Assembly (NCBI GenBank): GCA_950106755.1
Contig: OX467091.1
Span: 27,607,538 to 27,671,537 of the forward strand
Length of the DNA stretch: 64,000 bases
Direction of reading: 5' to 3'
Source of the DNA: Climacium dendroides
Lineage: Eukaryota > Streptophyta > Bryopsida > Hypnales > Climaciaceae
Both the position numbers and the translations under genes were made by a program. Shown here piece after piece: positions 19,985 to 53,359 of the stretch. The notes beneath the pieces were generated by a model. It searched no databases, had not been told where the DNA came from, and worked only from the letters and a program-made list of their open reading frames with translations. The first letter of the stretch is position 1. Every line of letters starts with the position of its first letter.

Positions 19985-20640
19985 ACCCCCTAAATGCTTG
20001 AGGTACCAAAATATTAAATATGGTGTTTGCAAAACTTTGAAGTTCAGTAAAACCTAACTATTTTTCATCATTTTAGTGAGCTAATAATTTAGGGAAATTC
20101 TTTTTGAAGTCTACTTTTGGATCCAGAAGTCCGATCTTGCAATTAAAGGACAATGATTTTTCTAAAAGAGTTATTATGCAAGGGTACCTTGTGCAATCTT
20201 GACTTTTCTTTTGTATTAAGAGCTTTTGGAAATGAGCCTCAAATACAGTAGATCTTGGAGGAAAATTCACATTGAAAATTCATATTAAAAAATTATAGAG
20301 TAAATTTTGTAAAGCCGTAAATTGATTGGGGTAGTGCAAGTTTGGCCCATTAACCTCATATTCTTTGGGTCCCCAACATTTTAGATTTGCCTTGCCAAAA
20401 AGGCTTCAACTTTTTTTTGCGATTTTAACAGCATCATAGTCAAATGTTATAATCTTTCACTCTACAAGTGATATTGTTGTGCTTTCTTTTCCTATGCAAT
20501 CTTTAACAAGTCTAGTTTGAATTTGTATGGTTACAATTCCAAAAAAATTGATACATCTTACCAAAATGTGGGCTCTTTGTTCAATTTAGAGCAAATTAGA
20601 GGAAGTTGAAATTTGAAAACAAGGCTTGGGCATGTAGGGG
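19985..20640 (+). repeat. Dispersed repeat family R, longest plus copy
   Basis: Runs from ATTTGCAAAACTTTGAAG through GCAAGGGTACCTTGTGC, GAAATGAGCCTCAAAT, AGTGATATTGTTGTGC and TCTAGTTTGAATTTGTA. It is colinear with the copy at 55895. The flanks 19372-19985 and 20640-21000 are AT-rich with nothing recognised. Confidence 0.65.
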
Positions 20641-24016: not shown

Positions 24017-24999
24017 AAAGCGCCTTCAAGCGAATGATTGAACACCCAAGAATCAAGGAGTTTGCAGGAAATTTGAAATTTGGAATTGCCCGCTAAAATG
24101 TTCCCGCTTTTTCCAACTTTTTGCCCATCTCCTGCCACGTGCATGTTCACTTGACAGAACTTGCCTTCCTCCACAAACACGCAGAGGTGACTCTTTTGTT
24201 GTTGCTATTCTCTTGCGCTTCAAGTGTATCTACATAGCACATTGACAAGTTCAGGTCTGCAATGATTTTTCTTCTTGTTTAGGAGTTCTTAGAAAGAAGG
24301 TGTACATTTGTATTTAAATTAGTTGCCATTGACCTCGTTTGCTAGTGAGTTTGTTTTGCACATCTTGATGTCAGGAAGTACGTGGTGCTAGTCGTTGAAG
24401 GTCCATGTTTGTAACATCTCAATGTATGAAGACGTTATTTTTCTCGAGTAAGCCTGGAGACTATAGGAAATTGGTTACTCGTGTTGTTAGTGAAGAGAGT
24501 TGTAACACAACGTTGTTTGCACTGCCCATTTTTTGCGGCGTGAATTTCGGAGCATTTCATGGATAATTCCATTACCTCAAAACTGTCAATGAGGGTACTT
24601 ATCGTTGAGTTGACGATAACAATGACCTCTTTGACTTCTGGTTATCGTCGAGTCGATGATAACGTAGTCAGATTTTTTCAATTGGCATTCCTAGCAAATG
24701 TGTAGCACTAGTAGAAAACAGGCTATCAATGACTGCTGTTTATAACTACGTAACCAGTCATTTAGGACACTAATGTCAATAGAATGACTAAAACTGGATT
24801 TTGGGCTCAGAGTCATTTAGGACAAGTAATTACGGATAAGGCAGTCATTTGGGACAAGACCATTCTTTTTCATCCTATGTTGATGTGGAACTTCATTAGG
24901 GTGTGATTATATGGAGTACCTCCAATGGCAGTTTGCCACGTGGCTACAGATCTAACATGTTGAGTTGGCAGTTTTTTATTCGTTGGTATTGGAGTGATT

Positions 25000-25290
25000 C
25001 TATTTGATGTCAAATAGGTTGTTGGAGTCATATTATAGGCTGCTGGAGTTATTTTGCAGGTTGTTGCAATCAGTTTGCAAGCTGCTACAGTCATTTTGTA
25101 AGCTGTTGGAGTCATTTCGCAGGTTGCTGCAATTAATTTGCAAGCTGCTGCAGTCATTTTGTAAGCTGTTGGAGTCATTTCGCAAACTGTTGCAGTCACT
25201 TCGTAGGTTGTTGTAGTCATTTTTCTGGTTGCTGAAGTCATTTTGTAGGTTGCTGGAGTCATTATATAGGTTGTTGGAATCATTTTGTAG
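25000..25290 (+). repeat. 21-bp tandem repeat inside CACTA-2
   Basis: GTTGGAGTCATTTYGYARRY units, about 13 copies, with two alternating variants. It keeps a long open minus frame of seven-residue repeats, explained by the period being a multiple of three. Confidence 0.85.
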
Positions 25291-25445
25291 TTACTATGTA
25301 AGCTATGGTAGTCATTTTCAAGTGATATTCATTCCAAAAAATGATTAGATCGATCACAATATTGTAAGTATAAATGACTACATTTATACTATTACTACAC
25401 TATGTTTGCACTATGACTACACTATGACTATACTATAATTGCACA

Positions 25446-25770
25446 ATGTCAAAATCTGAATTGCTTCAGTTGCCTAAATTGCATGAACTACCTAAACTCC
25501 TTAAATCGCCTAAATTGCTAGAAATCAAGAATTGCCTGAGTTGCTTAAATTGCTTAAATTTTCTAAACCACCTGCATTACCTAAACTATCAGAATTTCCT
25601 GAACTACTTGAATTGCCTGAACTGCTTGAATTGCCTCAACTACCTGAATTGCCTGAACTACCTGAATTGCCTGAACTGCCTAAATTGCTTGAACTACCTG
25701 AATTGTCTGAACTGCCTAAATTGCCTGAACTATCTGAATTGCCTGAACTACTTGAATTTCCTGAATTGAA
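25446..25770 (+). repeat. 9/18-bp tandem repeat (TTGCCTGAACTACCTGAA) inside CACTA-2
   Basis: Simple repetition produces open frames of Leu-Pro-Glu or Leu-Asn-Cys repeats. I regard these as a by-product of the repeat, not proteins. A purine-rich segment (25780-26050) and CCATCCATTTGATCCATC repeats (26215-26350) follow. Confidence 0.85.
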
Positions 25771-27284
25771 CAACAACAAATAACAACAAACAAGAAGTAA
25801 ATAGTAGAAAGCACTAAAGAAAAAGTAAATTGCTACATTCAAGAGATAAAGTTGGAAGTAGACCTAAACCTTCATTTACAAGCAAGAGGAACAAATGAGA
25901 GGAAGTTGATGAACAAGATGCAAGAAGGAAACAAAAACAAGAAGAAGAAAAAAGCAAAGAGGAGGCAAAAGCAAGAAGAAAATATGAAAGAAGATGAAGC
26001 TTGAAGAAGAAGGCAAAAATAGGAGGAAAATATAAGAAGAGATGAATCTTGAAGAAGAAGGCAGCAGCAGCTACAATTACAATATGCCACATGTCAACCT
26101 ACATAGAAATAGAAAGGCGGCTGACCTAAAATGTGGCGGCTAACCTAAAATCTAAGCCCTCCATTTACTATCAAGATACAATCTTATCCATCCATTTAAA
26201 GTCTAAACTATTCATTTTCAAATTGCCCATCTAATTCCACCATTTCAACCATCCATTTGATCCATCCATCATTCCATCTAAGCCATCCATTTGATCCATC
26301 CATCATTCCATCTAAGCCGTCCATCTGATCCATTCATCTAAACTGTCCATTTGAAAAGTAGTTTGTGACTTAAAAATGACTACAATGCAATTAGCATTTT
26401 ATAGAGAAGTAAATAATAAATTTAATAAGTTCAATTTCCATGGTGTCCTATTGTCAGTCATTTTTCAGTTTTACTATAGTCATATATTGTGCTCATTTTA
26501 TGATAGCACAACTCAAATATGACTCAACGAAAACTACATCAGCAATAAGGCCACAGAATACAGACTGAACTGTGGATGACACTAGTTCTGGTCGTTTGTT
26601 TCATCTAGTCGCCATCCACTGCTCTGGGAAATCACTACTAAATGACTACTGATTGTGACAGGTCAGCTTTGGCACCATTTCCATGACTGTCAGTCATTTT
26701 TCAGTAGCCTTTTAGTAACCAGTCATTTTTTGACTAGTTACATTTGACCTTGTTTTCTACTAGTGTAGCTACTTCAATTTCTTTTGATTTCAAAGGAGAA
26801 TGTGCATCGGGTTGAATTATTTCTTCTTCACATCCAACGAATCATGAAAGGAATTTCATTGAGGGTAGTTATCGTTGAGTCAACGATAACTCTGAGTTCT
26901 TTGGCTTCTGATTATCGTCGAGTCGATGATAAAGTAGTCGAATTTTTGCAATCGGCGTTCTTAGCAAATGTGTAGCTACTTTAATTACTTATGATCTCAA
27001 AGGAGAATGTGCATTGGCTTGAATTATTTCTTCGTCACATCCAACGAATCATGAAAGGAGTTTCCTTGTTGGTACATATCGTTGAGTCAACGATAACTCT
27101 AAGTTCTTTGACCTCCGGATATTGTCGAGTCAATAAACCGTAGTCGAATATTTGCAATTAGCATTCTCAGCAAATGTGTAGCTACCTCAATTTCTTATGA
27201 TTGCAAAGAAGAATTTACATTGGCTTGAATTATTTCTTTGTCACATCCAACGAATGAAGAAAAAAGTTTCATTGAGGGTTAGGG

Positions 27285-27345
27285 TTGCTATTTGGCGAGC
27301 CTATGAGCCTGAGCCTGTGAGCCTGCGAGCTTGTAAGCGTGAAAA
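27285..27345 (-). repeat. GCTCACAAGCTC-rich 3' module, copy 3 (downstream of gene A)
   Basis: On the minus strand it reads CACGCTTACAAGCTCGCAGG and continues with CTCACAGGCTC words, then TAGCAACCCTAA. It lies about 310 bp past the gene A stop and matches the block after gene B in sequence and orientation. Confidence 0.6.
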
Positions 27346-30300
27346 AAATGAATTGAAAAAATTTAGAATCTTGTAGAGTTGACCTATGACCATGGGTATT
27401 GTGTCGTGTACAGAGTGGTTAATGTGAGATCTGTTTTTGAGAGTCGGTTTAGTGTCCTGTTTTTATCTTTCAATCTTTCTTATAGGTAAAGACAAAATAC
27501 TATCAATTGAAGAAAATGAAGCAAGTAGAAAACATGCAAAAAATTGAACACATGGAAGAAGTATCCATAAAACACACAAATTCAACTACAATGAAAATCA
27601 ACACATAATAGTTTGACCCATTAAAGAGATTTGTCAATCTCATGAATCTAAGTTGTTTAGGACTCTATCAAAGAATCAGAACTCGGAGATGACTCTGAGG
27701 ACTCTCTACCTTCGGATGCTGAAACATCTATATACTGTAAGACATTTAGAGCGTAAGTGTCTTTACGGCGTTTGGGTTTGGAGCAACCAAACTCCGTGAA
27801 GGCACTCGCCATTTGCTCGGCATAGATTGGGAGCTCAAAAGACTTCTCCGGACTGATGAGAAGACTTAGTTGGGGTAGGGTGGCATTCCTTGCCATCAAT
27901 CTCCCATCTCTGCAACGGAAGAAGACATGTTGTCAATATTGTAGAACATGAAAGTCTTCATCCAAGCAAAGATGAAAGAAAATGCCAACTTACTTATTGG
28001 ATTTTCCCTTGCGAACGAATTTGCGAGGCACCATTGGCATATCCTTCGGATCTTGTGAAAGGTGAACTATCGGTGGCACAGTTGGTGTCACCACTACGGG
28101 TGTTGGTGACTTCCTCGTGGGTTTGGCATCATAAATGTCTTTATTCCCTTCCAAAGCCACAATGTGGTGGCAGGTGCCACGGCAAGCCGTAATACATGCA
28201 CCTGGAGGCAGTGAAATCAAAATGACTTAGTTCCATGAAAGAATTGGAAGAACACATTTGGAGGAATAAACTTCTGAATGGAATCATTACCTGGAGATGC
28301 GGTACAATCCAGAATCAAGTCTCCTGGAACACTTGTTGCCTCCAGGAGGATAGTGAAGAACCTTGGATCTTTTTCGCGTTCGCCTTGCCAAGGTTTGTTT
28401 CCATTCATAGCCACGTCATCTGCATGGGTGTAATTGATCAGCATGTCATCGATAGCCAAGTCCACACCAGCCTTCATTGTGGTGTTAGTCTTTTTGAAGG
28501 AAAATTTGGATTTTCCTTTGGAGCCGAGGTCCTTCACGAGGAGGGTGATTCCAAACTTCTGTGTCTGCAACGTCCATAGCAAATGTACGTAAGAATGCAT
28601 TGAATGGAGTGCATTGCAACTTGTTCATAAAAGTCAACAAAATTCTATGAAAATTACCGTCTTTGTGTTGTCTATAGCCGAGGTGATGTGCATGCGGTTC
28701 ATCCCCATCCAGTCCTTCTTCATCAGCAAGTCATACGCCTCACATACCCCATCAATGTTCTCTTTGGATTTGATGCTGTAGGAGTGAAATAGAATGATGC
28801 ACCCATCATCTTGTAGATGCTCTGTGGCGAAGCTACATGCCAACTGGAGAGCCTCATCATCAGCATCTGCATTCCACATTGGCACCTCATGGGCCGGTGT
28901 AGAAAGCCCAGGCACGGGTAAATTCTCCGGACAGTCAATGAATATGACATCCACCCCCGGTCGAGCATTTGGCACTCCCTCGAACATGCAAGTCTTTCCG
29001 GCCGACATCTGCAAACATATAGAACATGGTGAAGTTAAAAATAAGCACAGAAAACATTCATGAGACATGAAAGCACAAAATGCGCTTTTGAGTACAAAGA
29101 TGCATATGCATACCTTTTTCAAGAAATGCAGCACCTCGTTGTACCACGTGGGCTTCTCCTCGACCATGTCTTTTGCCAAGACTTCGATGGAGATGTTGAG
29201 GATCAAATCCTCCGTCTTGGAAACATCACCTTCTGTAATGACCATGGCTTGTGTCATACGAGTGATAACTTCCTCGGTGAGCTGTAGGAGAGTAGCCTTC
29301 TTCTATACTGCACTTTGCGCCTGTGAATCTTCATTTGCGGTGGAAGATGGTACCACCTCACCTCCCACTTCCTCCTTCTTCTTTCCCTTTCCCTTGCCTT
29401 TACCTTTCTCTTCCTTTTCTTTTGCCACCTTTTTGTCAGCGAGCTCGGACGCCTTCATCTCCTTCGCTTCAAGGTGGACTTGGACCCGCGCCTCTTTCTT
29501 CCGGTCCAGAAAATCCCTCCTTGCAATGGCCTTCTTTCTCGCTTTGTCATCCAGGCCTGTAAACTCATTGATCTCTAAGTCCAAGACCCCTTTCCCGTCC
29601 AAAGATCTCCTGAATTCAACCTCGGAAGGAGGAGTGAACTCGAGGAGACAATCCAGGTACCATCCTCCACTGCTGAGATGAGCTGTGGTGTAGGTGCGGA
29701 GCTGGTGTGCGGTGAACATACAAGAATTGGATGTGCGATCTAGATATGATGATAGGAAGGGGGGAAGGTCTGAGCGATCGATGGCTCCTTTTCCTTCGAG
29801 CTCAAATTTGAAATATCTACAACACAAGCATGATTTTGCATTCAGGAGAATGTAAATGATGATCATGGAATCTCTACAACATACATCTGTGAGCAATTCC
29901 GGATGGTAAGACCAACGAACTTGTGAAAAATGAATGCATTTCCAGTATAAGGACCTAATGGAGACGTTGCAGAAGAGAATTATCATACAATTGTATACCG
30001 AAAGGTTCTAAAATAAGGAGTTAGAGTTGAAGTGAACATTTGAAACCTCATTATAATGGACTTCAAATAGTATAGTGATTTTTACAATAACTTGCTGTCC
30101 ACCAAGTTATTAGACATATTCCAGTATTGAGATAGTGGAACTCACCGGTACAAAACTCTACGCACAGCAGCGGCTGACGCTTCGTGAGCCATGAACGAGT
30201 CCCCCTTTTTGAAGTAATTGTGCCCTTTGAAATATGTCTGAAACCTGTGCTCCCAAATTGTGTGCCTCCACCCTTCTATGTACTCTACCAAGTACTGTGG

Positions 30301-32348
30301 TTGTGTTGGAATGCTGTAGTTCACAGTGATGTTGTCCTGCTTCACCACCGAGTTGAAGTACTCCACTGCTGCATCTTCGATCTTCAAAGTACAATGCATG
30401 CTAAAAATGTACAATTGAAGACATTCATGGTTCCATTCTGAACTTGTGAGTTACAATTTGAAAACCAAGTATCGCTTGGTATAGTTACTTGACTACAGGA
30501 AACAATTCCCTTACCCCAGCATACCAGATGCATTTGGCAAGGAAATGGGGCAGGAGATTTTCGGAGACGGGCTTTGGTGGGAACTTCCTTGCTTCGCGAG
30601 ATGGAGCAGAGGAGTTCCACCACTTCAAGATCTTGATCTTGTGTGCAGGCGCCATGTTGCATGTGGCCACCATTTGCAACTTCTCCAATGTCATTTCAGG
30701 CACTTCATTAGTGCTCCAGTGCCTTTCCACCTATGACAGCAACACATTCAATAACTCTTGGTGTTTGAAAACAGAAGAAGTAAATTCGTAGTTGTGCAAG
30801 GTTTCAGAATTAGACTGACCTCCTGTAAGAAGCCTAGCCCGTTAGATGGTTGAGCCACTACCAACAACTTCCCCATTTTCACCATCAGAGTTTTGGTTTT
30901 CTCCTTTGCTCCCATCCTCATGGCAAGAGCGACTTCTTTAGGGGTCTTCTCCTCTTCTGGTGTAGCATCGGTATACTTTCTCACTGCAGCATCCGCAGCT
31001 TGGGAAATCTCTTGCTACACATTCAGACAATAACATTGAATTAGAAGTTAGTCATGTGAAGAGTTTTGGGAGCAGGCTACAGCAAACTGAAGGATTCCAA
31101 ATTTGTATAACACATAGTGTCTTACCCTGAAAATGAACGATGTGAAGACCTCCATAGATATGCTATACCATTTCCTTGAAACCTTGAATTGCAAACACCT
31201 TTTCTTCTCCCCGGGCTTGAGGAGATCAACAAATTGGTTGATTGGGAGAAGACCATACTTCTGCACCTGGTACAGAGTGTGTACCAAGTTTGTCTTCACG
31301 TGTGAATCCTCCACTGATCTGGAAGTAGAACACTATTTTAGGAAATCCAATAAGCCTCCATGATTTCACAACTAGGGCACATAAAAACCAAAGACCGGAA
31401 AAGCAGCTCAAGAAGGAAGAACTCACTTGTTGATGTCATGCATCACTTGCATGACAAGCTCGGTCTTCCCTTTGGTTTCCAGTACAATGCAATCTACGAC
31501 ACAGTGCCATTTTGGGAGCAATGTGTAGCACCTGTCAATGAGGTTCATCCACGCAATGCGGCGATGGTTGCCGTCGCAAATGAAGAACTTCAAGTTCTTG
31601 AGGAACTGAAGTTCAGGTCTAGAGTCGAGGTAGCATGTGAACACTTCATTTTTCTCTCTTCAGATTGGATCCCACTTGTTCATCTCGTCCTCTGCGAACT
31701 CTTGGCTTTCTCCTTCCTCATTAGTGGTAGAGACATAGAACACTGCCGCTCCATCACGGTATCCACCTGCGAATTCTTGCTCCAACTTCGTAATGTCACA
31801 AGCGAGTGTGGGCCTCACCATGGGCATAACGACAAGTCTGCAAAGCGGGATGTGTAGCCGGAAGAGTTCTTCGAGCTTCATTCGCAGAGTGGAGAGGATA
31901 TCTACTGAGTTGCCTTTTTGTATGCGCCGCAATTCATCCTCCATGAGTCCTTGATCTTCGTCTTCTAGGTCATCTATTTGCATGGGATCTTGTCTTCCTC
32001 CTTCTTCGTCTTCTTCTTCAACCTCTTCTTCTTCGTCCCCAATATGCGACTGTGTCGTTTCATCTGTTCCCGGAGTCTCCAAGATGGTCTCTTCTTGAAT
32101 TATTCCAGTGGGTGAAACATCCATCTGCATGTACAATTCCAGTCAGAGAAGATTGCACTCGCAAATTAAAAAAGAGGCCAAGTCCGTGCGAAGAATTTAT
32201 GTTGAGACGTAGTTGAAAATGCTTTACTTCAATAAAAAAAAATTACACTTATAGAATGGAAGAGTGGTAAATATATGAAAGAAAAACAGCTTGCACATGG
32301 CTTGCATGTCTAAAACCGCACAAGGTATGTAATTGGGGTCATGAAACC

Positions 32349-34731
32349 CTATTGGATGATGTCCACGTCATCATCCTCATTTGAGTCTGAGCTGATCGAG
32401 GATGATGACTTCATATGTGTAAACTCTACCAATCCCAATACTCTCACTCACTTCCTCAAACGAGGGGCTAGAGCTAGCATTTGAGAGCTCAATGGCGGAG
32501 GAATACTCCGTCTCCGAGCTCTCAGGGGAGAACCATGGCCCAGGCCCTTGGTTCCAACTAAGCCTATCTCCCTCGAAGTCATTTATAGCACGCTCTGCAA
32601 CGTCCATGATGTCTGCAAAACTCACCAAGTTCTCTTCATCATCATTAGAGTCACTTGAAAGCACTTGGCGTGCTTGAGGCCCCTTCTGTGGTTGAGAAGG
32701 CCCTCCTATCTGCAACGACGTCAAGGTCTGGTCAATTGGGGCCTGCTTCTCTTTAGATGTCACCCTTGGGCGCTTGCCTTTGCGTTGGCCAGCCTGGAGG
32801 AATGAATACAATGAAATTAGAGTTGAGGTTGAAGACAATGTCTAAGAGACATTGAATGCAACTGTAAGCAAGGAAACTTCAATTTACAAATCTCAACATG
32901 TATTATAAATACCAAAGGTCTCCGTAACCGAACTTCCTGTACATATAGGATTCATTCCCCTACATGAGTTCTATACCTACATTGAAGTGTAAAATCAAGA
33001 CGCATATGTCTTGGCAAGGTAATTCTCTCTAACAATATGTTATAACTCTTTTAGAACAACAAAAGATGCATTTGCAAAGAACACAGTGCAATAGCAATTC
33101 AAAATCCAAGCCAAAGGCTATGAGTACATTAGTAAGATTTTCCAAAGACATAGAGAACTGAAGGACGAGTCCTAACGAATAATGTAAGCAAAAAAAATTG
33201 GGAACTTGAGAACGAGTTCCCTAAGACAATCAGAGCTTGGGGACGAGTTCCTAACGACATTGAGAGCACTAAGCCTAAATCCCAAATCCGAATGCCCTCT
33301 ATTTCATTATTTAAATATAAACAAAAAAGACAGATACTAATACCTCATCAGAGATTGATTGTGTGCCATCGAACAACTCCCCATGACGATCACATGTCTG
33401 AAGAAAGCAAATGCACACGTCAGGATTGAAGATGGACCCATACAGTAGTTTTGGAGTACAAATCGAGTAAAATCAACTTGGACATGTGAAAAATTCCATC
33501 AGGCTGGGGTGTCACCGTGAACACCGTCAGATCTGACGGTGTTCACGGTGACACCCCAGCTTGATGGAATTTTTCACATGCCCAAATCTCTACTTCATGC
33601 AGCAACATTCTAATGAGATATGTCCAGTCCAAAGCGACATTAAATTTCTAGGAGGTAAAGGACAGTCCACAGCCACATTCCAAAGACACCCACGCCAGTC
33701 CACGCGGGAGATTTGGGCATGTGAAAAATTCCATCAGGCTGGGGTGTCACCGTGAACACCGTCGGATCCGACGGAGTTCACGTTGACACCCCAACTTGAT
33801 GGAATTTTTCACACCTAGTCCTCTCTCAAAATCAGATTTCTCTCAAAATGAGATCCAAGCCAGTCCACGCGGGAGATTTGAATGTTAATCGATCAAGGCA
33901 AGTGCACGCGTTAGATTAAACATTTCTCATTCTAGTGTTTATACCGAATCTAAAACGCCTTGCTGGGACTGAGGATACTACGTGCTGCGGTGACAAATTT
34001 CATTAGAAAAACAGAATTCAGAAGCTAAATCGACCCAGCCTTTCTCAATATCAGATTTATCTCGGATTATCGCATCTCCTCCAGTGTGGAGCTCAAGGAA
34101 GATAAGACTTCCGCTCAAAACCGGGTCAGGGTGGTCGTTGGAGTCGTCGGCATGAAGAAAAAATGATCAGCCCGAGGGTGCTACTTGAACACCGTCGGAT
34201 CCGACGGTGTTCAAGCAGCACCCCCGGGTTGATCATTTTTTCTTCATGCCGACGTGACACCTCCCTCATAATCAACTTCCGAATTATTTTTAGCTGGATC
34301 TGCCGCTGTGTATCCCCCCGTGTGAGCTTTCGTAAGCCCAAAATATGGCAGTTACCGATCGATTCTAACCTGTATTGCTCCAGTGAACCGCTAAAGGAGT
34401 GAACTGCTACAGTCAATACTAATGTGGTGGTTGGCAACCAAACCACGCGATTGAGGATTTTAGTCTCAGACTTCTGATGTTTCTGCCCCTTCTTTAAGCC
34501 CAGATTGGAAACTCAACAATGGAAGCCAAAGCACTCGATCGAGCAATTTCAATCTAATTGAATCGGGCACTCAAGAAAACAAGCATCACCCACGTGATGC
34601 GACTGTCGCGCGCCGCGCGTGGCGCGAGTGGCGCTGCTGAAGCTTGTACTCCTTAGCGCATAGGACTCACATAAGAATACCAAAATCTAGACACCAACCT
34701 GAAGCGCTGGGTTCGGCTCAACATCTGCCAT
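32349..34731 (-). CDS. Gene A alternative short product (read-through of the third exon's 5' splice site)
   Basis: Exon 3 can end at a GTGAGT donor (32625) leading to the ParB exon, or read on. The read-through is protein-like and conserved in gene B: LVSFADIMDVAERA against LVSFNDVMEAAEFA, then SPESSETEYSS against SPESSDTEYTS, ending in an SSDSNEDDDVDIIQ/SSDSEEDVEID acidic tail before a stop. In gene A this tail is in a shifted frame near 32395, so the copy looks damaged and its current stop is TGA at 32377. I infer that the locus makes a short acidic protein and a long one by alternative splicing. The function of the short form is unknown. Confidence 0.4.
33483..33580. repeat. GATC-centred palindrome P1, 98 bp, in gene A intron 1
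   Basis: Two 49-base arms with no spacer, centred on CAGATCTG. The arms differ at a single pair (G opposite T). Ends are CATGTGAAAAATTCC and its complement. It would form an almost perfect 49-bp hairpin in RNA or a cruciform in DNA. Confidence 0.95.
33721..33812. repeat. GATC-centred palindrome P2, 92 bp, in gene A intron 1
   Basis: Same outer arms as P1 (GTGAAAAATTCCATCA) and same middle words, but the centre is CGGATCCG. A few unpaired positions. The flanks GAGATTTGGGCATG (left of P2) and CATGCCCAAATCTC (right of P1) are also inverted, so P1 and P2 form a larger inverted pair. Confidence 0.93.
34145..34254. repeat. GATC-centred palindrome P3, 110 bp, in gene A intron 1
   Basis: Centre CGTCGGATCCGACG. 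Arms end CGTCGGCATGAAGAAAAAAT. The inner GAACACCGTCGGATC part matches P2, while the outer arms are unrelated to P1/P2. Each new outer sequence is matched by its own complement. A short GC-rich self-complementary run, GCGCGCCGCGCG, follows at about 34607. Confidence 0.93.
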
Positions 34732-35839
34732 CCTGGAATGACTGCAAGTAATGTGGGCCATTGCAGCTTCGTCCTGTAGATCAAGGATTGCCAAGCTGTT
34801 AGATTCTTCGGACACATTGCTACACTAATGGTGAACGACTTCCATGTTCCAAGGTATGATAGTTTAGTAGTTCGGCCTGAATAATCGATTCACAAAATGA
34901 AAATCCCACAAGTTCTCATTCCAGCACACGCGGCCATTTGATTGCATGTGATATCATCGAGCACCAGCTTCTCAATGTAAGGTCCTCCACCGTCAAGTGC
35001 GTATCGTGAGCGATGAGAGAGTTTGAATGTTTCCCGCCTACGTCCACAGGAGGAATCCCTGGAAGCTCATTCGTTGGACGGCGCAGAGAGATATCCGTGA
35101 GTCTATCTCGAAATCAACTCACTTGGGCGGCATCCAGGACTCCTAAACTTGGAACGGAAGTACCTTTTTGGAGGCCTTTTGGACGCTTGGAAATTCAGGA
35201 ACCAACTTCCTGGAGTGAGCGGTGCGGGAGACACCAAATTGTAGCTTAGGGCGTTCGATCGATTCGAAGCTCTTATTCATCTTCCCCGATTTCCAATTTC
35301 AAACTCACAGTTTCCATCTTTGGACTCCCAAGACTGGCTTTTGGATTGCTAGTTCAGAGGACAACTAACTTCTGAGCACTCTTTCATTTTGAAAACTCCG
35401 AAGCAACCCTGCTGGTGATTAAATTGCTTTGGCATTATAGAACTTTAAAAAAAAATTCATTTTCTTTCTTAGTGACATTAGAATGTCTACAAGCCTTCAA
35501 GGCCTATGAATGTTTGCAAGCTTCATGTGAACACCGCAGATAAATTGTTCTTGTTAGTACAAATGTCTGGCCTTGACCTTAAACACCCTTTCCAAATTAC
35601 AGAAAAGTCCTTCTAAAATAAGGGATGTTCTACTTGTCTCTTTAGAGCAGCACCAGAGCCTTCAAGGCCTTCACTCCAAATGAGAGTACTTATCACTCTC
35701 AATTGATCTTGTTTGTCAGTACTAAAAATTGTACAACAACAACAGGAATGCAAATTTTGCGTGTTCAGAAATGCAACTAAACGCAAGTTCTCTCAATGCT
35801 TGTCCATGACTCACTAAAAGTCTAAAACTGAAGGTCTAC
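34732..35839. other. Upstream of gene A, no gene seen
   Basis: Mixed-composition DNA with only short ORFs and no recognised motif. It probably includes the gene A promoter, but I see no clear TATA box. Confidence 0.5.
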
Positions 35840-35905
35840 AACTCAGGGTTGCTACTGTGCAAGCCTGGAGCAGGAGCCTGTGAGCTTGTAAGCGGGAAGT
35901 ATTTT
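35840..35905 (-). repeat. GCTCACAAGCTC-rich 3' module, copy 4 (downstream of gene B)
   Basis: Minus strand: CGCTTACAAGCTCACAGGCT with CCTGCTCCAGGC words, then AGTAGCAACCCTGAG. It lies about 460 bp past the gene B stop, in the same orientation as after gene A and the two SWIM genes. Confidence 0.6.
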
Positions 35906-36362
35906 CGATGAAGAAATCTATCATCAAATCTGTATTTGATGGGGGAAAGGTGTGACGAACCCATGACCGTGAACTTGGGGTCAACCGAGGTTCTATGACC
36001 GTGGATTTCATAAACATTTGTGGGTATATAAGTTGAGGGTCATTTGTGGACACTTAGAGGCACTACCAATTTTGTGGAGAAACCCTTATCACGTAAAACA
36101 GAATTATTTTGTTTAGGATCACATATGAAGTGTTCTAAGAATGCAAAGGAAATTAAATGAGCCCAAGATCTACCAACTATATTTTATCAAATATTAATGG
36201 TTTACCATCAGAGATCATTTTTCATTCCTTCATTTTCAATGTACGTTCAAAATCAAACAATAAATACAATGCATGCAACTTGTAGCCATGAATCACAGAA
36301 AACCAAATCAACTTAGAAATCAATGAGCCCAGTTAAATTCATCAGATATGGAAATCTTATGA

Positions 36363-39300
36363 ATCTAAGTGGCAGTGGAGTTCGTCATAGAAACCTCACT
36401 TGAGGTTGACTCTGGAGTCTTTTCACCCTCAGAAGCTGAAACGTCCAGAAAATGAACTACGTTTGCAGCGTATTTGGGTTTGGAAGGCTTAGGCTCTTTG
36501 CAACCATATCGTTCATACTGTGATGCCATCTTCTCGGCATACACTAGAAGATCGTAAGACTTCTCTGGACTCAGAATAAGTCTTCGGATCTTCTTTATAC
36601 GATGTTTGTCCGTCACTCCTTCGTTCCTTCAAATACAAACAGTGCAACGTTTGTCATATTGATTTATGAAACGCAATACTTTTTGAATACAAAAACACAC
36701 TTCTCTTTCAAGAGTGAAACTTACTTACTAGGTCTAATGTTGCGTGTAAACACCATTGGTTCCACGTGCACGGCATCTAGATCAAGAGCGGCAAAAACTT
36801 ATGCTGGATCTTGTGTCACTCCTTGTAGTAGATTGGCTTTTTTCATTGGCAAGAGAATCCCCTTGAAGATGTTCTCATCCTCTTCCAAAGCCACAATATG
36901 CCGTCCTGTGTCACGACATGCAGTAATGGATGCCCCTGCAGTACAAGCGTGTAGGCATTAGGACTTCAATAATTATACACACAAATAAACATTTCAGTTT
37001 GAAGCTCCTATTTCAAAGCAACAACTGACCCGTAGCTGCGGTGCAATCCAAAACTACATCTTCTTCATCCGAGTAGCCTTCGATGAAAAATTGAAGGAAC
37101 CTTGCATCTTTCTCTCACGGCCCGCGCCAAGGCATTTTTGATTCTTGGTTGACTAACATTGTTTCCTCAGTGATATAATTGATCACCATGTCCTTCCTTT
37201 GAAGATTCCACTTTGCCTTTGTCATGGCATCAGTCTGCCTAAACGTGAAGGTTGATTTCCTTTTCTCACCCAGATCCTTCACAAAAAGGGTGACTCCAAA
37301 CTTCACAATCTGCAAAAATGGACAGAATGTTCAGTAGAAAGAAGAATGCCTACAAGACAATTGGCATGCACATAGAAAATTCAAAAAAACTTACCGTCTG
37401 ACCAGGTGTAATACCCGAAGCTAGGTCCAATTGGTTGAATGCCAACCACTCCTTCTTCATCACCAACTTCTTGAAGACGTTCTTCAATCCCGCAAACATA
37501 CGCCGCAATTGAAGGCTGTACGAGTGAAATACAATAACGCAGCCATTGTCTTGTAAGCTTTCCTCGGCAAAGTAAAATGCATTTTGCATTCCCGCACACG
37601 CTGGGTCCGCATTCCATGACGGAACGTCCTTCTCAGAGATGAGTGGTACGGGTAGGTTCTCTTGGTAGTCAAAAATAATAAGGTCCACCAAAGGCTCCTG
37701 GCTCACTCTACCATTTAGTGAGCGAAGTTTACCTGCATTTGCCTACAATGGAGTAATTGTTCATGTTATTAGAAAGTTCAAAATGAGACCATTTCTGATT
37801 TAGAAAATCCATTGAAGTTACTAACTGAATTTTATGGTGCCACATACCTTTGGAATGAAGTCCATGACCTCAATATAAGAATTTGGTGGTGAACTCTCCA
37901 AATTGTCCATGATGTCAATAATAGATGCATTCAAGATGAGCTCCTCCGACTTCATGTCATCATCATCTAGTCTAACGACCTGCGTGCCTTGTGTCACCAT
38001 ATCCTCCGTCCACTCGGCAAGCACAGCCTTCCTCTTCATCCCACTCTGACTTCCCTCCACCAACTGCGAGTTCTGATCGACTGCTGATGATGATGGAACG
38101 ATGATATCACCATCATCGTTTTTCTTCCCCCTTGCCTTGGCTTTCTCCTCCTTCTCTTTTTGCTTCTCCTTCTCCTTTTCTTCCAGCTTTGCCAAACGCT
38201 TTGCCTCCTTCTTTTGCTTGTTATCTAAAGCAATTTGGAGACGGATTGCTTTCTTCTTGTCAGCGTGGTCCTTCTTTGCAATTGCCTTCCTCTTCTGATC
38301 TTCGGTAAGGCCTGCAAATTCATCGACATTGATGTCCACCGCTCCAATGCCTTCCAAAGAATTTCGGAGGTGTACCTCCGATGGATGCGTGTACGATATC
38401 GGGCAATCAATGTACCATCCACCGCCACTTAGATGAGCTGTGGTAAATGTTTTAAGTTGATTTGCTGTGTACATGCAACTTGTGGAACTGCGATCTAGAA
38501 AGACCGGAAGGAATGGAGGAAGGTCTGCCCTTTGAATGGCTCCTTTTCCTTCCAATTCAAACTTGAAATATCTGCATCATGATAACAAAAAAAAGTAAGG
38601 AATAATTTTAAAAATCAAATTAGACCACAGAAAATTTCAATCATGCGTACATCTGCTTGAAAGCAAGTTTTCTTATGTCTCAAAAAATAGAAGATTAGAA
38701 AATTAAGTTCTAGACCTTCCAAAGGATAGAAATGGGGGACCACCAACTACTTCTCGAGGATGCCTCGGATCCAAGGCAAGTTCTACAAGTAGTGAGAGGC
38801 CTAGCTCCCTTTTTTTTCCATTCTGTACCTCAAAGAAGTTTAGTTGTTCAACTACGTGTTTTAGGCCAAGTTAAAGGATACTCTTAGTTGAAATTATCAC
38901 TTTGAAATGAATATTTCTTTATCTAGTTGAAGACATACCGAAAAAGGACCCTCTTCACTACCTGTTGGGACCCCTCATAAGTGTTGAAGTTGTCGCTTTT
39001 TTTGAAGTACTTCGCTCCTCTAAGATGAGCCAAGAACCCTTGATCCCAGATTTTCCTCCTCCAACCTTCCAAGTATTCCGGTAAGGTTTCTAGCTGAAGT
39101 GGAACCTTCATATCGATGATGATGTTGTCCTGCTTGACAACTTCTTCAAAGTATTGTACGGCTGCATCTTCAATCTGTGGAAGGAGAAGAAATTTTAGAA
39201 ATCATATAATATGTAGTGAATGTAATTTGAATTTTTCAAAATCCTAGTGAGTACGACCTGTAATGGCTTTCAATTTGAATTACATGAATAGGTGATCACT

Positions 39301-41603
39301 TACCCCTGCGTACCAAACACAACGGTTCAAGAAAGGACCGAGTAAGGTCTCTGATACCGGCCTAGGTGGAAAACGTCTCGAATCCTGTGATGGCGTAGAG
39401 GAATTCCACCACTTCAGAAATTTTATCTTGTGATCTGCCGAGGTATTGCAAGTGGCCACCATTTGGAGTTTTTCTAGAATCATCTCCGGAACCTCATTGG
39501 AACTCCAATGTTTCTCAATCTGGTCAACAAAAGAAAAGAAAAGGCTATTACATTTCAATGTCCCAATGACATCAATGGATTCAGATTATGACGTGGGTCA
39601 TGAAATCACGTCATCTAGAAAACCTTGTTTGTTAGGTGTTCCGGATCACATAGCATGTGCCAGTCCCTCCTCAATTCTATCATCCTCTGGAGTCATCTCA
39701 TTGTACCTCCGCACTGCTGCATCTGCAGACTGGGCAATTTCTTGCTGTAGAAGTGGAACAGGCAAAAATTTCACATTAATGATTGTATAATAAGAAGGTA
39801 CAAAAAAACATAATACATATGAATGGAGAAGCATTCACAAAGATTCTCACCCTGAAAACAAACAACGTGAAGACTTACAGTGGCATAGAATACCAAGTCT
39901 TTTTAGCTTCAGAGGCACTATACAGTCGGAGCTCCGACGGCCTGAGCATCTTTTTGAACCGCTCAATAGGAAGGAGACCATATTTCTGAACCCAGTATAA
40001 TGTGTGCACCAAATTGGTCTTCACGTGCGAGTCTTCTGTGGACTTGATGCATTTAGAAGCAATTTCAATTAGTGTTGTACCCAACATTTGCCACGTAGTT
40101 CAAATCAATGAAAACAAGTCAAACATTAAAGTTCCAATGAGGTAGATAACAGACTTACTTGTTAATGTCATGCATGACATGCATGACCAATTCGGTCTTA
40201 CCCTTCGTATCTAGTACAATGGAGTCCACCGCGTAATGCCACTCCTCATCTTTGGAGTGTTTTTTGGTAATGTAGTTCATCCATGAGATGAGTCGGTGAT
40301 TACCATCACAAACATAGAACTTAAGGTTATTCAGAAACCTCAACTCAGGTTCGGAGTTCACACTAGCATTGAAGATGTCATTCTTTGCCTTCCACAGCGG
40401 ATCCCACTTCTCTATCTCCTCTTCTGTGAATTGTGAGCTCTGTCCACCTTCATCCGTTGTTGTGACATAGAAAACTGCCGCTCCATCTCGGTAACCTTTG
40501 CTGAACTCATGCTCCAAGAAATCAAGATCACATGACAGAGTCGGTCTCACCATGGGCATAGGAACCATTTGGCAAAGTGGGATTTGTGGTCGGAAGAGGT
40601 GAGTCGGCTTCATCCTCAATGAAGCAATGGTATTCACTGAGTCCACCTTGTGATATTGTTGGAGATCGTCTTCCAACAAGTCTTTGTCATCATCCAACAA
40701 TAGGTCATCAATAACGTCCTCATCCACCGCATCTCCTTCATTTTCACCTTCATCTTCACTTGTAATGGGTGGTTGTGTTGAATCATCGATCTTTGGCGTT
40801 TCTAGAATAGTCTCCTCGTGCCAAATGTTTGTAGGAGTGCCATCCATCTACAAGGTTCACCCATGAAATTAAGCAACATGCTTGTACTCTCATCGAGGAA
40901 TCTAAAATTCCGTTCAAACAAAACCGTTGTGGGATTCAATAAACAAATGATTGCATGAGTAGTCAAGCAGTTGAGGGCAGAGTTTAGAGATCAAAAGACA
41001 TGCATATTATAGGACACGTTTTGACGCGATATGTCTTTAAAGGAAATCCAATACAATGGGATCAATCTATCTCTACATCTTCCTCTGAGTCAGAGCTCAG
41101 AAGAATGATGATGGGTTCTCCTAAACCATGAAATGCGCTACGTGCACAATCAAAAGTCTCCTCCATCAATGGCCCATCAATGGTGATGGAGACTTCTGTG
41201 TCTGAGGTGTACTCAGTGTCCGAACTCTCGGGAGACATACACTTGTTTGGGTTGTTTCTAGCCTTCTCAAGGATAAATTGAAGACGTCTACGTTTTTGGA
41301 CAGACGTGAGTTGATGTGCATGTCTTGGTGATTGGGTGTCACTCACTCGACTGAGTTTAGAACTTTCAAATGCATCAACAGCGAACTCAGCTGCCTCCAT
41401 GACATCATTGAAACTTACCAACTCCTCATCTTGAAACTCTTACTCCTCCATGTCTTTCTCTTCATCGGAATCGCTGGAATCCTCCATAGTTTCCTTCAGC
41501 GGTGAAAGAGCTTGTGATGGTTCTGCCTCATGAGTGCCTGGGACGTGAGGAGGTGTTGTCGTTGATGAAGAGACATTTTGCCCATGTCTGACCTTCTTTG
41601 GAA
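36363..41603 (-). pseudogene. Gene B: paralogue of gene A (ParB-like plus permuted methyltransferase-like)
   Basis: Colinear with gene A exon for exon. Landmarks: acidic exon near 41603-41419 with a GTAAGT donor and a conserved read-through ending at 41062; ParB-like FYVCDGNHRLISWM in 40847-40159; KLQMVATCN in 39529-39308; the charged exon 38573-37848; motif IV-like LIIFDYQENLPVP with GCVIVFHSYS in 37737-37394; motif I-like LDCTAATGASITACR with HIVALEE split over the exon ends near 37029 and 36940. DPPY is replaced by DYQE. Stops at 41440-41442 (TAA), 39875-39877 (TAA), 37115-37117 (TGA, Arg in gene A) and 36799-36801 (TAA), plus a truncated exon near 39660-39750, mark it as decayed. The protein, not the introns, is conserved with gene A, so both descend from a gene once under selection. 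Confidence 0.62.
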
Positions 41604-41804
41604 TGCAACATTTTCAAAGTTAGGAATCCATAAGCCAAATCATCAAAGACCACAATTATATTGCTTGAGTGCATTTGGCTGTGAAATAAACTTTTCCAAG
41701 TCCAAATCAGATAAAGGAAATTGACCAATGCATGTGAAGATCTACGAGTACATACCAAGAAGGTCTACTTTAATCTTTCCTATTAATCTCTAAATCCAGT
41801 CCAA

Positions 41805-42030
41805 ACAATCACAAGGATCACCAAACACTATAAGAATCATCAAGATCACCTACCACTTTCAGAATGAACAAGATCAACAAACACTGTATGCATTACCTTA
41901 AACACCAAACAATGTAGGAATCATGAGGATCACCAAAAACACTAAGAATCAATAGGATCACTAACTACTAAAAGAATCAACAGGATATGAATACACGGTG
42001 ACAATCATTAGGATCACGAAATACTGCCAC
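41805..42030 (+). repeat. Degenerate 30-40-bp minisatellite (AGGATCACCAAACACTA)
   Basis: GGATCACCAAACACTRTAAG and GAATCATCA/GAATCAACA words recur about six times. It lies just upstream of the gene B exons. Confidence 0.6.
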
Positions 42031-42187
42031 ACCCAATAGGGAAACAGAATAACGCCGCGGCATGAGAGTCATAATCACTACTACATTTATAATGCATTCA
42101 AACACCGGTAATAAGAAGAATAATCAGTGGTGAATTTTCAGAAATAATCTCCAAAGCGTGCATATCCTGAACCTCAGTCCAATAAAT

Positions 42188-42259
42188 GGGGGTCTTGGTG
42201 AATGCTGCCATGTGAACCTTGGATCCGAGACTTGTCTGGCAACACCTACCAGGACCCCC
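42188..42259. repeat. GATC-centred palindrome P4, 72 bp
   Basis: Ends GGGGGTC and GACCCCC, centre TTGGATCCGA, with several unpaired positions. Oldest-looking member of the gene B set. Confidence 0.85.
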
Positions 42260-42410
42260 TAAAATTCAAACATTAGGCTTCATTTCCAAATGATACAAAA
42301 ACACGAAATTCTAGTCTTCTAGGAATGACACGGACACATGATAAAAAAATGGGCCACTCATCCGTTGGACCTTCAGAGATTTCAAATAAAAGTATAGTGT
42401 TAAGAAAATA

Positions 42411-42482
42411 GGGGGTCCTTGTGAGTGTTGCCAGACCAGCCTCGGATCCGAGGCTCGTCTGGCAACACTCACAAGGACCCCC
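42411..42482. repeat. GATC-centred palindrome P5, 72 bp
   Basis: Arms GGGGGTCCTTGTGAGTG and complement, centre CTCGGATCCGAG, one mismatched pair in 36. Same length and frame of symmetry as P4 and P6-P10. Confidence 0.93.
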
Positions 42483-42794
42483 TTGTTTCACAAATTTTTA
42501 TTTTCTTACGATTGTTTCAAGAATCAGGATTAGAAGTAGTGGCTCAAAGACGATTACATACCATCCTACTCTCAACCGAAAAAAGATGCCAACTAGGGAT
42601 TCACGGCGCTCATTTGAAGACACCACCAGTAGTTGATGAGAAATCAAAGTTTTCTAATTGCGGAAGAGAATGGTCACAAGGCTGAAACTGAAAGGAATCG
42701 GCGGAAGATCAACATGGGGAGTGCAACCTCTGGCTCCATTTCATTGAACATGGAAATTGTAGCGGGTCTAGAATTGGAGACTTATCCAAAAAAG

Positions 42795-42866
42795 GGGGGT
42801 CCTGGTGAGTGCTGCCAGACTAGCCTCGGATCCGAGGCTGGTCTGGCAGCACTCATTAGGACCCCC
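42795..42866. repeat. GATC-centred palindrome P6, 72 bp
   Basis: Arms GGGGGTCCTGGTGAGTGCTG and complement, centre CTCGGATCCGAG, with few mismatches (TTAGG against CCTGG). Confidence 0.92.
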
Positions 42867-43198
42867 TGATTCTTACAGATTTCACTTTACAATGGTAAGG
42901 ACGTATTCATTAATGAAGAACAAAAGTTGCAACTCTGATACAATTACATACCGTCCTAGTCTCAACCATGTCTATGCCAACAAGGGATAAACGGGTGTTG
43001 ATTTGATCACCTTACCAGCCCCTTCTGAGAAATCAAAGTGATTTGGTTTTGACAGGGATTATGGTCGCCAGGTTCATTTGGCGGAAGGGCAACACCATGA
43101 GATCAGGTTGCGGCTTCACTTCACTCAGTAGGAGAATTGTATAAGGTCCACACATAGGAACGACAAATACATTAAAATCATTTTTGTGTTAAAAGAAT

Positions 43199-43940
43199 GG
43201 GGGTCCTGGTGAGTGCTTCCAGACCAACCTCGGATCCGAGGCTTATTTGGAAACACTCACCAAGACCCCCCCAAATTCAAAAAATATGTACGATCGAAAG
43301 GAGACTGAACAAATTGGATTGTTTCCACTCTTAGGACTGTATGGTCTGAAGGCTAAAATTGGGTAGAATTCACAAAATCACACCATGAGGAGTGGGGCGT
43401 GCGGATGGATTTAACTAAAGGTCGAGGCCGAGGTCGACGTCGGATGCTTTAGAGGTCGATCAGGTTTTGAAATAACCGGGGGTCCTGGTGAGTGCTTCTA
43501 GACCAGCCTTGGATCCGAGGCTTATCTGGAAACACTCACCAAGACCCCCTCCAAATTCAAAATGCACTGTACAATCCGACCGAGACTAAACGAACAGGAT
43601 TGTTTCCACTCTCAGGACTGTTGGGTCTCAAGGCTGAAATTGGAAAGAGCACCATTAGGAGTGGAGCGTGCGGTTGGATTTCACTCAAAACAGAGAGACA
43701 AACCAGGTCGAGGCCCAGTTCGGATGCTTCAGAGGTCGATCAGGTTTTGAAATAACCGGAGGTCCTGGTGAGTGCTTCTAGACCAGCCTCGGATCCGAGG
43801 CTTATCTGGAAACACTCACCAAGACCCCCCCCAAATTCAAAATGCACTGTACAATCCGACCAAGACTAAACGAACAGGATTGTTTCCACTCTCAGGACTA
43901 TTGGGTCTTAAGGCTGAAATTGGATAGTATTTACAAAACC
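43199..43940 (+). repeat. Tandem array of about 280-bp units, each starting with a GATC palindrome (P7, P8, P9)
   Basis: Palindromes P7 (43199-43270), P8 (43478-43549) and P9 (43758-43829) are 72 bp each and spaced 279 and 280 bp. The intervening sequence is also repeated (AATGCACTGTACAATCCGAC, GATTGTTTCCACTCTCAGG, GAGGTCGATCAGGTTTTGA). P7-P9 have lost some pairing (GCTTCTAGACC against CTGGAAACACT) but keep the centre CGGATCCGAG and the G5/C5 ends. Confidence 0.9.
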
Positions 43941-43976
43941 GGAGTTGCCGGAGTTGCCGGAGTTGCCGGAGGTGCC
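43939..43976 (+). repeat. 9-bp minisatellite (GGAGTTGCC)n
   Basis: Four units of GGAGTTGCC, the last with GGAGGTGCC. Confidence 0.95.
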
Positions 43977-44390
43977 ACAGTCAAGGTACCACCGCGAGCA
44001 TCATCAACGACAGATGAGACAAGCAATGCAGAAAACCACAAAACAATTGTATTGCGGCATTAAGTCACAAAATCACAGGAAATCGTACCCTCTTCATTCT
44101 TGCAAGTGCTAGAGCGACACTTGTATCATGTGCTCCTTGCGTTGCGCGACTCCTTGTGTTCCTTGTCATCTGTGGTTGCTGCAATTTCCAACCGCCGTGA
44201 GCTCAAGTCAGGTTTTACAAGTTCCACACCATTCCTTTAGAAGCGATGGCTATGTTTAAATCACGGCTAAGGACCCAAACCACAGAACCCGAATCCACGA
44301 TGCGCACAAGCTAAGGTAGCGTACATCAGATTCTCCTTCCATAACACCGCAGCATGAGAGTCTTCCTCCGGAACTCAGGAACTCCGCGGA

Positions 44391-45125
44391 TCTAACATAT
44401 TCCATTTCCGCCTTGAAAATGATCGGATTAGCATGTTTGTGAAAGCAAGAAGGCCGCGGATGGCAGGTGCATCCGGTCCAAAAAAAATTTCCAAGTGTGA
44501 TGCTCGGTTTGGGCCCACCGAAGGGAGCTCCCACCGCAGATCTAACAGATTCCATTTCCGCAATCCTAATGCTCGGATTAGCATGTTTGCGAAAGCAACA
44601 AGGCCGCGGAAGGTAGGTGCATCTGGTCCAAAAAAAATTTCCAAGTGTGACGCTCGGGTTGGGCCCACCGCGGATCTAACAGATTCCATTTCCGCCTTTG
44701 TCATGCTCGGATTAGCATGTTTGCGAATGCAACAAGGCCGCGGATGGATGGTGCACCCGGTCCAAAAAAAATTCCAAATGTGACACTCGGTTTGGGCCTA
44801 CCGAAGGGAGCTCCCACCTCCCAAACTCACAGATTCCAGTAACGCCTACGGAATGCTCGGATTCGCATGTTTGCTAAAGCAACAAGGCCACGGATGGATG
44901 GTGCATCCAATTAAAATAAATTACAGATGAGGCTCGGTTCGGGAGACAAGGGAGCTCCCACCTCGGAACGGATAGATTCTAGTAACGCCTACCGAAAGGC
45001 TTGGATTTGCATGTTAGCGAAAGCAACAAGGCCGCGGTTTAGGGTGGTGCATCCGATCAAATAATTGACGGATGAGGCTTCGTTTGGATGCCCTAAAGGG
45101 AGCTCCCACCTCCCAAACTCACAGA
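44391..45125 (+). repeat. Tandem array, five units of 134-150 bp
   Basis: GCATGTTTGCGAAAGCAACA recurs at 44431, 44581, 44715, 44865 and 45009. Each is followed by GGCCGCGGATGG, GGTGCATCCGGTCCA, and AGGGAGCTCCCACC. Divergence increases to the right. The open minus-strand frames here are repeat translations. Function unknown. Confidence 0.9.
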
Positions 45126-45799
45126 TTCACTTTTAAGCATCTAGGTAATGTGGCGGGTGGACCAGAGGCAGCGACTACCATATTCATGATCTAACCCCAC
45201 AACTCAGTCAGTATTGGGCAATTTCCAAATGGACTTAAGCCAAATTTACGGGTTCACTCCACGCCACGCTGGTGCTTAAATAAATTAATTATCGAATAGG
45301 ATTGCAAGCAAATATTTATAAAGTGCAAGAAAAGAATTTCAATAGCCTATACATTTGCAGTCCCCTTAAAGAATGTACAAGGTTTCATAGGAAGTTTCTA
45401 ACCATGGAAAAGTAAGGTCATATCATATTTTTTCATATGTAGATTGCATGTAATCCATTGCCCCCACACTCATGTCTGATAAACTCAACAGCAAAGAGTG
45501 ATTTCGTATAGACCCGAAGTGCCAAGCACACAATGTCTTTACGAACACCTGAACTCTAGAGCAGTTACTAACTATATGTATACCTCACCTACAGAAGTAT
45601 AGTGATCAATGCTTTTTTAAACTCTCCGATGTATGCTATCAAATAAAAATAGCGCTGAAACTTGTTCTCTTCGCGAACTGACTATGTTGCATTGATACCA
45701 TCAACATTGCCAAGACCATGTAATCCTCGGTTGCCCTTTCCTGAACCCTAAACTCAAAATGAAATTGAAATGAATCGAGGTAGTCCAGAAACTTCTTAC

Positions 45800-45994
45800 A
45801 GTACAGACGTCCACAAGTCTTCCTCCATGCTGTTGACTTCTATTCTCCATGGTAACCACTTGCTCTGCCTCCTCGCCATTAGTACGTGAATCCTCCTCTC
45901 CAGCAGTGCTCCCCGTCTCGTAGCGAAGAACTCTCCATAGATCAGCTGGTGTGGAGTCTGCCTTTTTCGGTGGGACTCTCCCTCCTCTCGTCAT
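45800..45994 (-). other. Possible 5' exon of gene B
   Basis: An ATG-started frame of 65 codons (MTRGGRVPPKKADSTPADLW) ends in a GTAAGA donor in phase 0, the phase used by the gene A 5' exons. If it is spliced to the exon at 41603, palindromes P4-P9 would lie in the first intron, as P1-P3 do in gene A. There is no sequence similarity to the gene A first exon, so this is weak. Confidence 0.25.
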
Positions 45995-46042
45995 CCTGGA
46001 TCGCTTCAATGCCTTCGCCGATGAAAAGAAAATGCGAGCCAC

Positions 46043-51400: not shown

Positions 51401-51885
51401 ATCAAACCGGATCTGTGTTAGTTAGGGGATCAGTGGATAGGAAAGTGGGTCTTCAGCCACTATAATTCACGGAAGGAGTAGTGGGCCTACCACTTTCAAA
51501 AGCAAGCGGTGAACCCTCTGATGGTAAAACAGAGGTAAAACTAAACCGAGTACGGAAGGGTGGACTGGATCGGATCCGCCCAGGAGGGTACATAGGACCG
51601 GAAGTTGCAGGGTCCAGAATCGAGAAGTCAGTCCAGAAACCGGGGAACTAGTAAAACCGGAAGTAGGATACAGTATGGTTGTAGTTTTCCGGTTGGTTTT
51701 GGATGTTCCGGTCGTCAGAGGTAGAACCGGAAAAGTAGAATTAAAGGGTTTAATTGGGTTTATCTCCTTGTTAGAGTTAGCTACTTCACAGGATCTCGTG
51801 GGTTCGATCTTTAGGGTCATTTTATTATGCTCTAGGGTGATTTTTGTGAGTATAATAGGGAAATTGCTTACCCTGTGCTGCGACA
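48468..51885 (+). mobile_element. 3.4-kb insertion with TGT...ACA ends and 5-bp target duplication
   Basis: CTTGT is present at 48463-48467 and 51886-51890. The element begins TGTGACAACTC and ends GCTGCGACA, as retroviral-type LTR elements do. Removing it with one CTTGT rejoins the transposase reading frame exactly (HLTC then ENANYEY). I cannot find a direct repeat that would be the LTRs, and there is no pol gene, so its class is open: a non-autonomous LTR element with lost or very diverged LTRs is most likely. TATA boxes are seen at about 48758 (ACTATATAAAGCC) and 50853 (TATATAAAAC). The whole element is saturated with CCGGA/TCCGG words. Confidence 0.8.
49078..50736 (+). pseudogene. Gag-like / 'putative plant transposon protein'-type ORF of the insertion
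   Basis: One frame of 553 codons starts at ATG. Residues about 40-230 (RDVYGFRPGGLG, TITLANTIFRALSRTRKVDW, YVYHLYQQQELL) resemble the plant transposon-protein domain found in gag-like ORFs of plant retroelements. An acidic run of about 13 Glu follows, then a basic linker. The second half has a coiled coil (TLKAELFALLENATATKEMV) and a Pro/Ser tail. TGA at 49885-49887 and TAG at 50071-50073 interrupt it, fitting CGA-to-TGA and CAG-to-TAG. No protease, reverse transcriptase or integrase follows. Confidence 0.6.
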
Positions 51886-53287: not shown

Positions 53288-53359
53288 GGGGGGCCTCAAG
53301 ACAGTGTACAAACAATTGTCGGATCCGACAGTTGTATCCAAGGTGACAACAGGACCCCC
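53288..53359. repeat. GATC-centred palindrome P10, 72 bp, in the MULE/SWIM gene intron
   Basis: Same length and ends (GGGGG...CCCCC) as P4-P9, but the centre TTGTCGGATCCGACA is closer to P2/P3. The middle of the arms is partly unpaired. Its presence links the transposase gene to genes A and B. Confidence 0.85.

Follow-up and report, generated by a model that had tools for sequence, protein, structure and literature searches.

Two decayed ParB-methyltransferase-like genes with an altered catalytic motif in the moss Climacium dendroides

Analysis of a 64,000-nucleotide (nt) stretch of the Climacium dendroides genome (assembly GCA_950106755.1, contig OX467091.1, positions 27,607,538 to 27,671,537; hereafter the window, numbered from its first letter) revealed two related multi-exon genes, A and B, each encoding a predicted ParB-like domain followed by a methyltransferase-like region. 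We consider it somewhat probable (roughly 55%) that A and B, both now decayed, belong to two old multicopy sublineages within a eukaryotic family of ParB-methyltransferase fusions, comparable to the accessory gene reported from algal transposons, and that their lineage has a degenerate catalytic motif. The gene, we infer, spreads with a mobile element.

The original prediction of two colinear, multi-exon paralogues was confirmed by hand-spliced exon-intron models and their read-through translations: A and B lie on the minus strand at the positions predicted (Table 1), all nine introns fall at matching places, and GT donors are present in 18/18 cases. Introns measure about 81 to 329 nt in A and 88 to 367 nt in B, the longest being the same intron in both genes. 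The read-through proteins have 1110 (A) and 1096 (B) amino acids, about 1100 rather than the ~1,190 residues first proposed, and BLASTP found 543/1122 positions identical (48%) and 756/1122 positive (67%), a likeness that on this alignment is far beyond chance. Both proteins carry the DGNHR motif, a charged central region, D-x-x-E-N-L-P-V-P, LDCTA..GA.ITACR, and HIVALE. Over 1072 aligned codons, the synonymous difference (pS) was 0.756, which is saturated, and the nonsynonymous difference (pN) was less, at 0.311 (ParB-like part, 0.237; methyltransferase-like part, 0.346); the split between A and B is therefore old, with both proteins constrained for much of that time. Both are broken genes now: in-frame stops occur near 31661 and 29304 in A and near 39876, 39647, 37116, and 36800 in B, and near 40042 a change in length at the acceptor of B exon 2 shifts the frame.

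The assignment of the N-terminal region to the ParB/Srx-like superfamily is supported by structure prediction. An AlphaFold model of the B domain, built from a 94-row family alignment, reached a pLDDT of 78.3 and a pTM of 0.75 and in a fold search resembled ParB, Noc, KorB, and sulfiredoxin (Srx) folds, at sequence identities of 8 to 15%; a model from the two-sequence alignment was uninformative (pLDDT 34.8). A motif of the G-x-(H/R)-R type followed by a helix is a feature of this superfamily, and DGNHR is present in 81 of the 94 rows and is followed in the AlphaFold model by a helix at 126-139. The predicted fold is common to this family, the N-terminal domain of bacterial ParB, Noc, and KorB, and sulfiredoxin, whereas bacterial ParB has the ParB motif GERR where the family has DGNHR. 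The match to PF02195 (ParBc) that had been anticipated was absent from all 94 family members scanned with Pfam at E 0.1; the scan gave weak matches to DUF1015 (3/94) and DndB (1/94) and matches to chance-like families (KMP11 in 7/94), and a PDB sequence search with ParB-like profiles gave no ParB match. Giant-virus and phage ParB-like folds were among the weak viral matches of the fold search, as might be expected if A and B were remnants of a large DNA virus of eukaryotes. We regard such an origin as extremely improbable: 94 pattern matches to the ParB-like exon in a viral contig collection yielded 0 confirmed, phage records contained no match to the ParB-like exon of the one family member used as a query (P0111), the nine-intron structure is spliceosomal, and Pfam found no viral core gene among the 16 open reading frames (ORFs) of the window that were scanned.

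For the C-terminal region, the evidence supports a permuted, beta-class amino-methyltransferase-like organization in which motif IV precedes motifs X-I, as had been predicted. Alignment by hhalign with three annotated phage DNA methylases gave 96.2% probability (E 2e-9) over 195 columns, which is most of the region, D-x-x-E-N-L being placed on D-I-P-Y-N-L and the motif I/II part coming last; as a negative control, the ParB-like profile against the same phage methylase alignment gave 0.1%. B matched the methyltransferase family PHROG 18293 at E 2.8e-9 and a CcrM model at E 7e-4, far below that model's cut-off. The resemblance to PF01555 that had been foreseen was found in part, with B matching at E 0.002, below the cut-off, and A alone giving no methyltransferase match in the Pfam, PHROG, and CcrM-model libraries that matched B. 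Against the PDB, a two-sequence profile of A and B found DpnA at E 0.0017, and tblastn against phages returned 239 records at E <= 0.1, the best being an unannotated contig (E 1e-6 over 95% of the query). When 29 rows of alignment A7 were compared with PHROGs, each methyltransferase family was reached by a single member only, and A reached none. DpnA, CcrM, MboIIA, and the phage methylases share with the family described here the order of motif IV before X-I, the domain length, and the LD....G and E of the cofactor part; conservation of the first D, like the named matches, leans towards enzymes that modify adenine (N6-adenine, N6A, rather than N4-cytosine, N4C). The aligned phage methylases, at about 250 amino acids, are judged from their length to be too short for an added ParB-like part.

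Where beta-class enzymes carry the catalytic tetrad DPPY, or more generally (D/N/S)-P-P-(Y/F/W), A has DCPE and B has DYQE, and the alteration that the original prediction reported in these two copies extends to every relative covering the motif. A C-terminal profile search found 27 relatives, of which 20 cover motif IV; the fourth tetrad position is E in 18 of them and K in 2, and it is aromatic in 0/20. The change is therefore shared by the sampled relatives and is not decay of A and B alone, in a search whose query, A and B together, could have let lineages with an intact tetrad escape. E-N-L-P-V-P is also present in a JGI ORF (P0021) whose identity to B is 28% across 81% of the query. Motif I of both genes reads LDCTA..G and is missing the usual first glycine. 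We envisage a protein whose ParB-like domain, perhaps a nucleotide-switched clamp, would load on element DNA and whose methyltransferase-like domain would keep its S-adenosylmethionine- and DNA-binding shape without the aromatic residue of D-P-P-Y. The latter domain may be mainly a noncatalytic reader or partner, not a standard N6A/N4C writer, and might shield the element from silencing or aid its mobilization.

A ParB-methyltransferase fusion in a eukaryote has precedent. As described in PMC12477816, the accessory protein of the Ectocarpus element Sola1-1_Ec32 has 1104 amino acids and combines a ParB-like domain with a predicted N4-cytosine or N6-adenine methyltransferase domain, and its gene lies within a 21.5-kb transposon, opposite the transposase; transposon-encoded ParB-methyltransferases of green and red algae are cited there as parallels (Iyer 2011; Petroll 2025). 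By description, the moss genes resemble it in having the same pair of domains in one protein of about 1100 amino acids, in being eukaryotic, and in being repeat-associated; unlike it, A and B have no tied transposase, are both broken, and have an altered tetrad. The same paper proposes that such proteins bind and epigenetically mark their own transposon (PMC12477816), and this proposal favors the main alternative to a noncatalytic partner, namely, an active self-marking enzyme in which D-C-P-E-N-L is an unusual working variant that methylates the DNA bound by the ParB-like domain. All 20 relatives covering motif IV retain the first D and the N-L that follows the tetrad, and E-N-L-P-V-P is complete in 14/20, as would suit an active enzyme; the acidic or basic residue at the aromatic position in all 20 and the form of motif I argue against one, and we think this alternative rather unlikely. 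The Marchantia protein MpDN4MT1 is likewise a plant amino-methyltransferase, an N4-methylcytosine (4mC) enzyme said in the accounts of PMC8885841 and PMC8566409 to be bacterial in origin; unlike A and B, it is described as active and as having no added N- or C-terminal domains. No land-plant report of a ParB-methyltransferase fusion was found in the PMC open-access literature, which misses most subscription papers.

The reading of A and B as members of a multicopy family draws on the number of their relatives. The DGNHR exon had 496 database matches at E <= 1, and clusters at 90% identity reached 48 sequences in P0043 and 42 in P0008, with a contig column of 1 for both, which makes copy number per genome an indirect estimate. 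In a quick tree of the ParB-like exon, drawn with a midpoint root, A grouped with 28 other rows (support 99) and B with P0028, P0029, P0030, P0032, P0034, P0035, and P0036 (support 85-94, not starred), and a third group (support 96) comprised 41 rows whose contigs do not exceed about 19 kb. A and B are likely to represent old sublineages, each of which expanded later. A full-length search with B residues 60-1060 scored 7992 candidates, none of which reached E <= 0.001, probably because the relatives are stored as exon-sized ORFs; domain-sized queries worked.

The original prediction had pictured an old acquisition turned into a repeated, possibly mobile, gene family; the repeated family stands, and a direct bacterial donor and mobility of A and B would be conjecture. 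No transposase could be linked to either gene, and a scan for terminal inverted repeats around them found none at a sensitivity that short ones would escape; the inverted pairs in the repeat scan were palindromes or repeats elsewhere in the window. The same observations would suit an old host gene family that arose by ordinary duplication, as would the past protein constraint and the conserved intron structure of the pair. The large 90%-identity clusters, the coding decay in both genes, and the occurrence of this architecture within a published transposon (PMC12477816) speak against a host family, which we think rather unlikely. Under the transposon accessory reading, a short noncoding stretch found 3' of both stops could be part of the element end.

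Palindromes lie 5' of both genes, beginning about 1.4 kb from the ParB-like exon. With a minimum of 22 paired arm positions out of 36 and a G+C content over 50% as criteria, a scan of the window found 13, of which 11 have a GGATCC or AGATCT centre: 3 are 5' of A, 6 are 5' of B, 1 is in an intron of B, and 1 is at 53323. Block shuffles of single bases over the whole window gave 0, 0, 0, 1, and 1, an undercount reflecting an extra demand for two central pairs that was absent from the real scan. Arm likeness beyond the core was 8/31 for the A1 type against B (shuffle p 0.61), 15/31 for A3 against B (p 0.008), and 18/31 for B against the copy at 53323, a value reached by 0/5000 shuffles; p was < 0.05 in 3/10 type pairs. 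Among the changes in the B array, 4 occur symmetrically on both arms and 22 on one arm, a tally that gives no strong support to maintained symmetry. Tandem duplication accounts for several of the copies, and the independent events are therefore few. The placing 5' of both genes is suggestive, and a role as candidate binding sites would be speculation; given that one copy lies at 53323, that the B palindromes include tandem duplicates, and that some arms are weakly alike, an ordinary dispersed palindromic repeat is the simpler reading. We regard as distinctly unlikely a mobile-element family in which a ParB-like clamp joined to a pseudo-methyltransferase, its tetrad lost family-wide, recognizes long GGATCC-centred palindromes 5' of its own gene, which would amount to parS-like self-recognition on a eukaryotic chromosome. 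Also 5' of B, at 44384-45128, are tandem units with spacings of 150 and 134 nt that are 62-89% alike.

Each gene is accompanied by an acidic companion ORF that ends before the ParB-like exon. The two are partly conserved between the copies (32% identity across 91 aligned columns, including 29 gaps; single-comparison E 3e-10), and the end of the B companion presumably resembles a SUMO-interacting motif. No link was found between other repeat-like genes in the window and A or B. Two related gene pieces on the plus strand, at 51528-55024 and 12902-13360, have a SWIM-like C terminus (a weak SWIM match at 12902-13360), with 73% DNA identity between 12883-13452 and 54487-55058; by eye the piece at 51528-55024 is like a MULE-type transposase, and it has no Pfam match. 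A protein-kinase-like ORF lies at 18497-19204 on the plus strand (Pkinase E 7.5e-5, below the cut-off). Minisatellite-like arrays occupy 24994-25329 and 25456-25783 (periods of 21 and 9 nt), with a 152-amino-acid frame open through the first, and a dispersed direct repeat at 20016-20491 and 55932-56406 is 79% identical and has inverted counterparts around 59.6-60.0 kb. Nothing was found when the window was scanned for Rfam families and tRNAs. The observed/expected ratio was 0.70 for CpG and about 0.71 for CAG/CTG, and CCG (1.12) and CGG (1.19) were not depleted, a pattern that fits plant-type CG and CHG methylation only in part.

Table 1. Positions of genes A and B, their domains, and neighbouring features in the window
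Feature	Position	Strand	Remarks
Gene A, ParB-methyltransferase-like	27657..32130	-	10 exons, 9 introns; at least 2 in-frame stops
Gene B, paralogue of A	36365..40847	-	Same 10-exon structure; at least 4 in-frame stops and 1 splice-acceptor length change
ParB-like domain of A (approximate limits)	31426..31905	-	ICDGNHRR; member of the 94-row family alignment
ParB-like domain of B	40158..40676	-	173 amino acids; VCDGNHRL; AlphaFold model and ParB/Noc/KorB/Srx fold matches
Methyltransferase-like region of A, exons 6-8 (approximate limits)	28120..29008	-	Motif IV DCPENLPVP before motif I LDCTASPGACITACR
Methyltransferase-like region of B, exons 6-8 (approximate limits)	36840..37742	-	Motif IV DYQENLPVP before motif I LDCTAATGASITACR
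Companion ORF 5' of A	32380..32841	-	Acidic; SPESSETEY motif; likeness to companion ORF of B
Companion ORF 5' of B	41065..41439	-	Ends in SUMO-interacting-motif-like IIILLSSDSEED; no Pfam match
Noncoding stretch 3' of A, common to B	27279..27343	-	GCTTACAAGCTC.CAGGCTC ... AGCAACCCT.A
Same noncoding stretch 3' of B	35843..35898	-	
Three near-perfect palindromes 5' of A	33478..34254	.	GATC centres (33531, 33766, 34199)
Six palindromes 5' of B	42188..43842	.	GGATCC-centred (42223, 42446, 42830, 43234, 43513, 43793); partly tandem units of ~280 nt
Degenerate palindrome, intron 5 of B	38733..38805	.	GGATCC-centred; 23/36 arm positions
Degenerate palindrome outside both genes	53287-53359 (53323)		Centre TCGGATCCGA; arm end AGGACCCCC as in B cluster
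CACTA-type tnp2 transposase fragments	3850-5805	-	Transposase_21 E 4.5e-31 and 8.4e-22; nothing ties them to A or B

If A and B are decayed members of such a fusion family, ParB-methyltransferase fusions would not be limited to a few algal transposons and would form a large eukaryotic family, one lineage of which is without the usual catalytic residue. The family would then offer a testable case of bacterial partition and modification parts reused by eukaryotic mobile DNA, possibly as a reader or shield and not as a writer, and would call for caution against annotating such genes as active plant 4mC or N6-methyladenine (6mA) enzymes.

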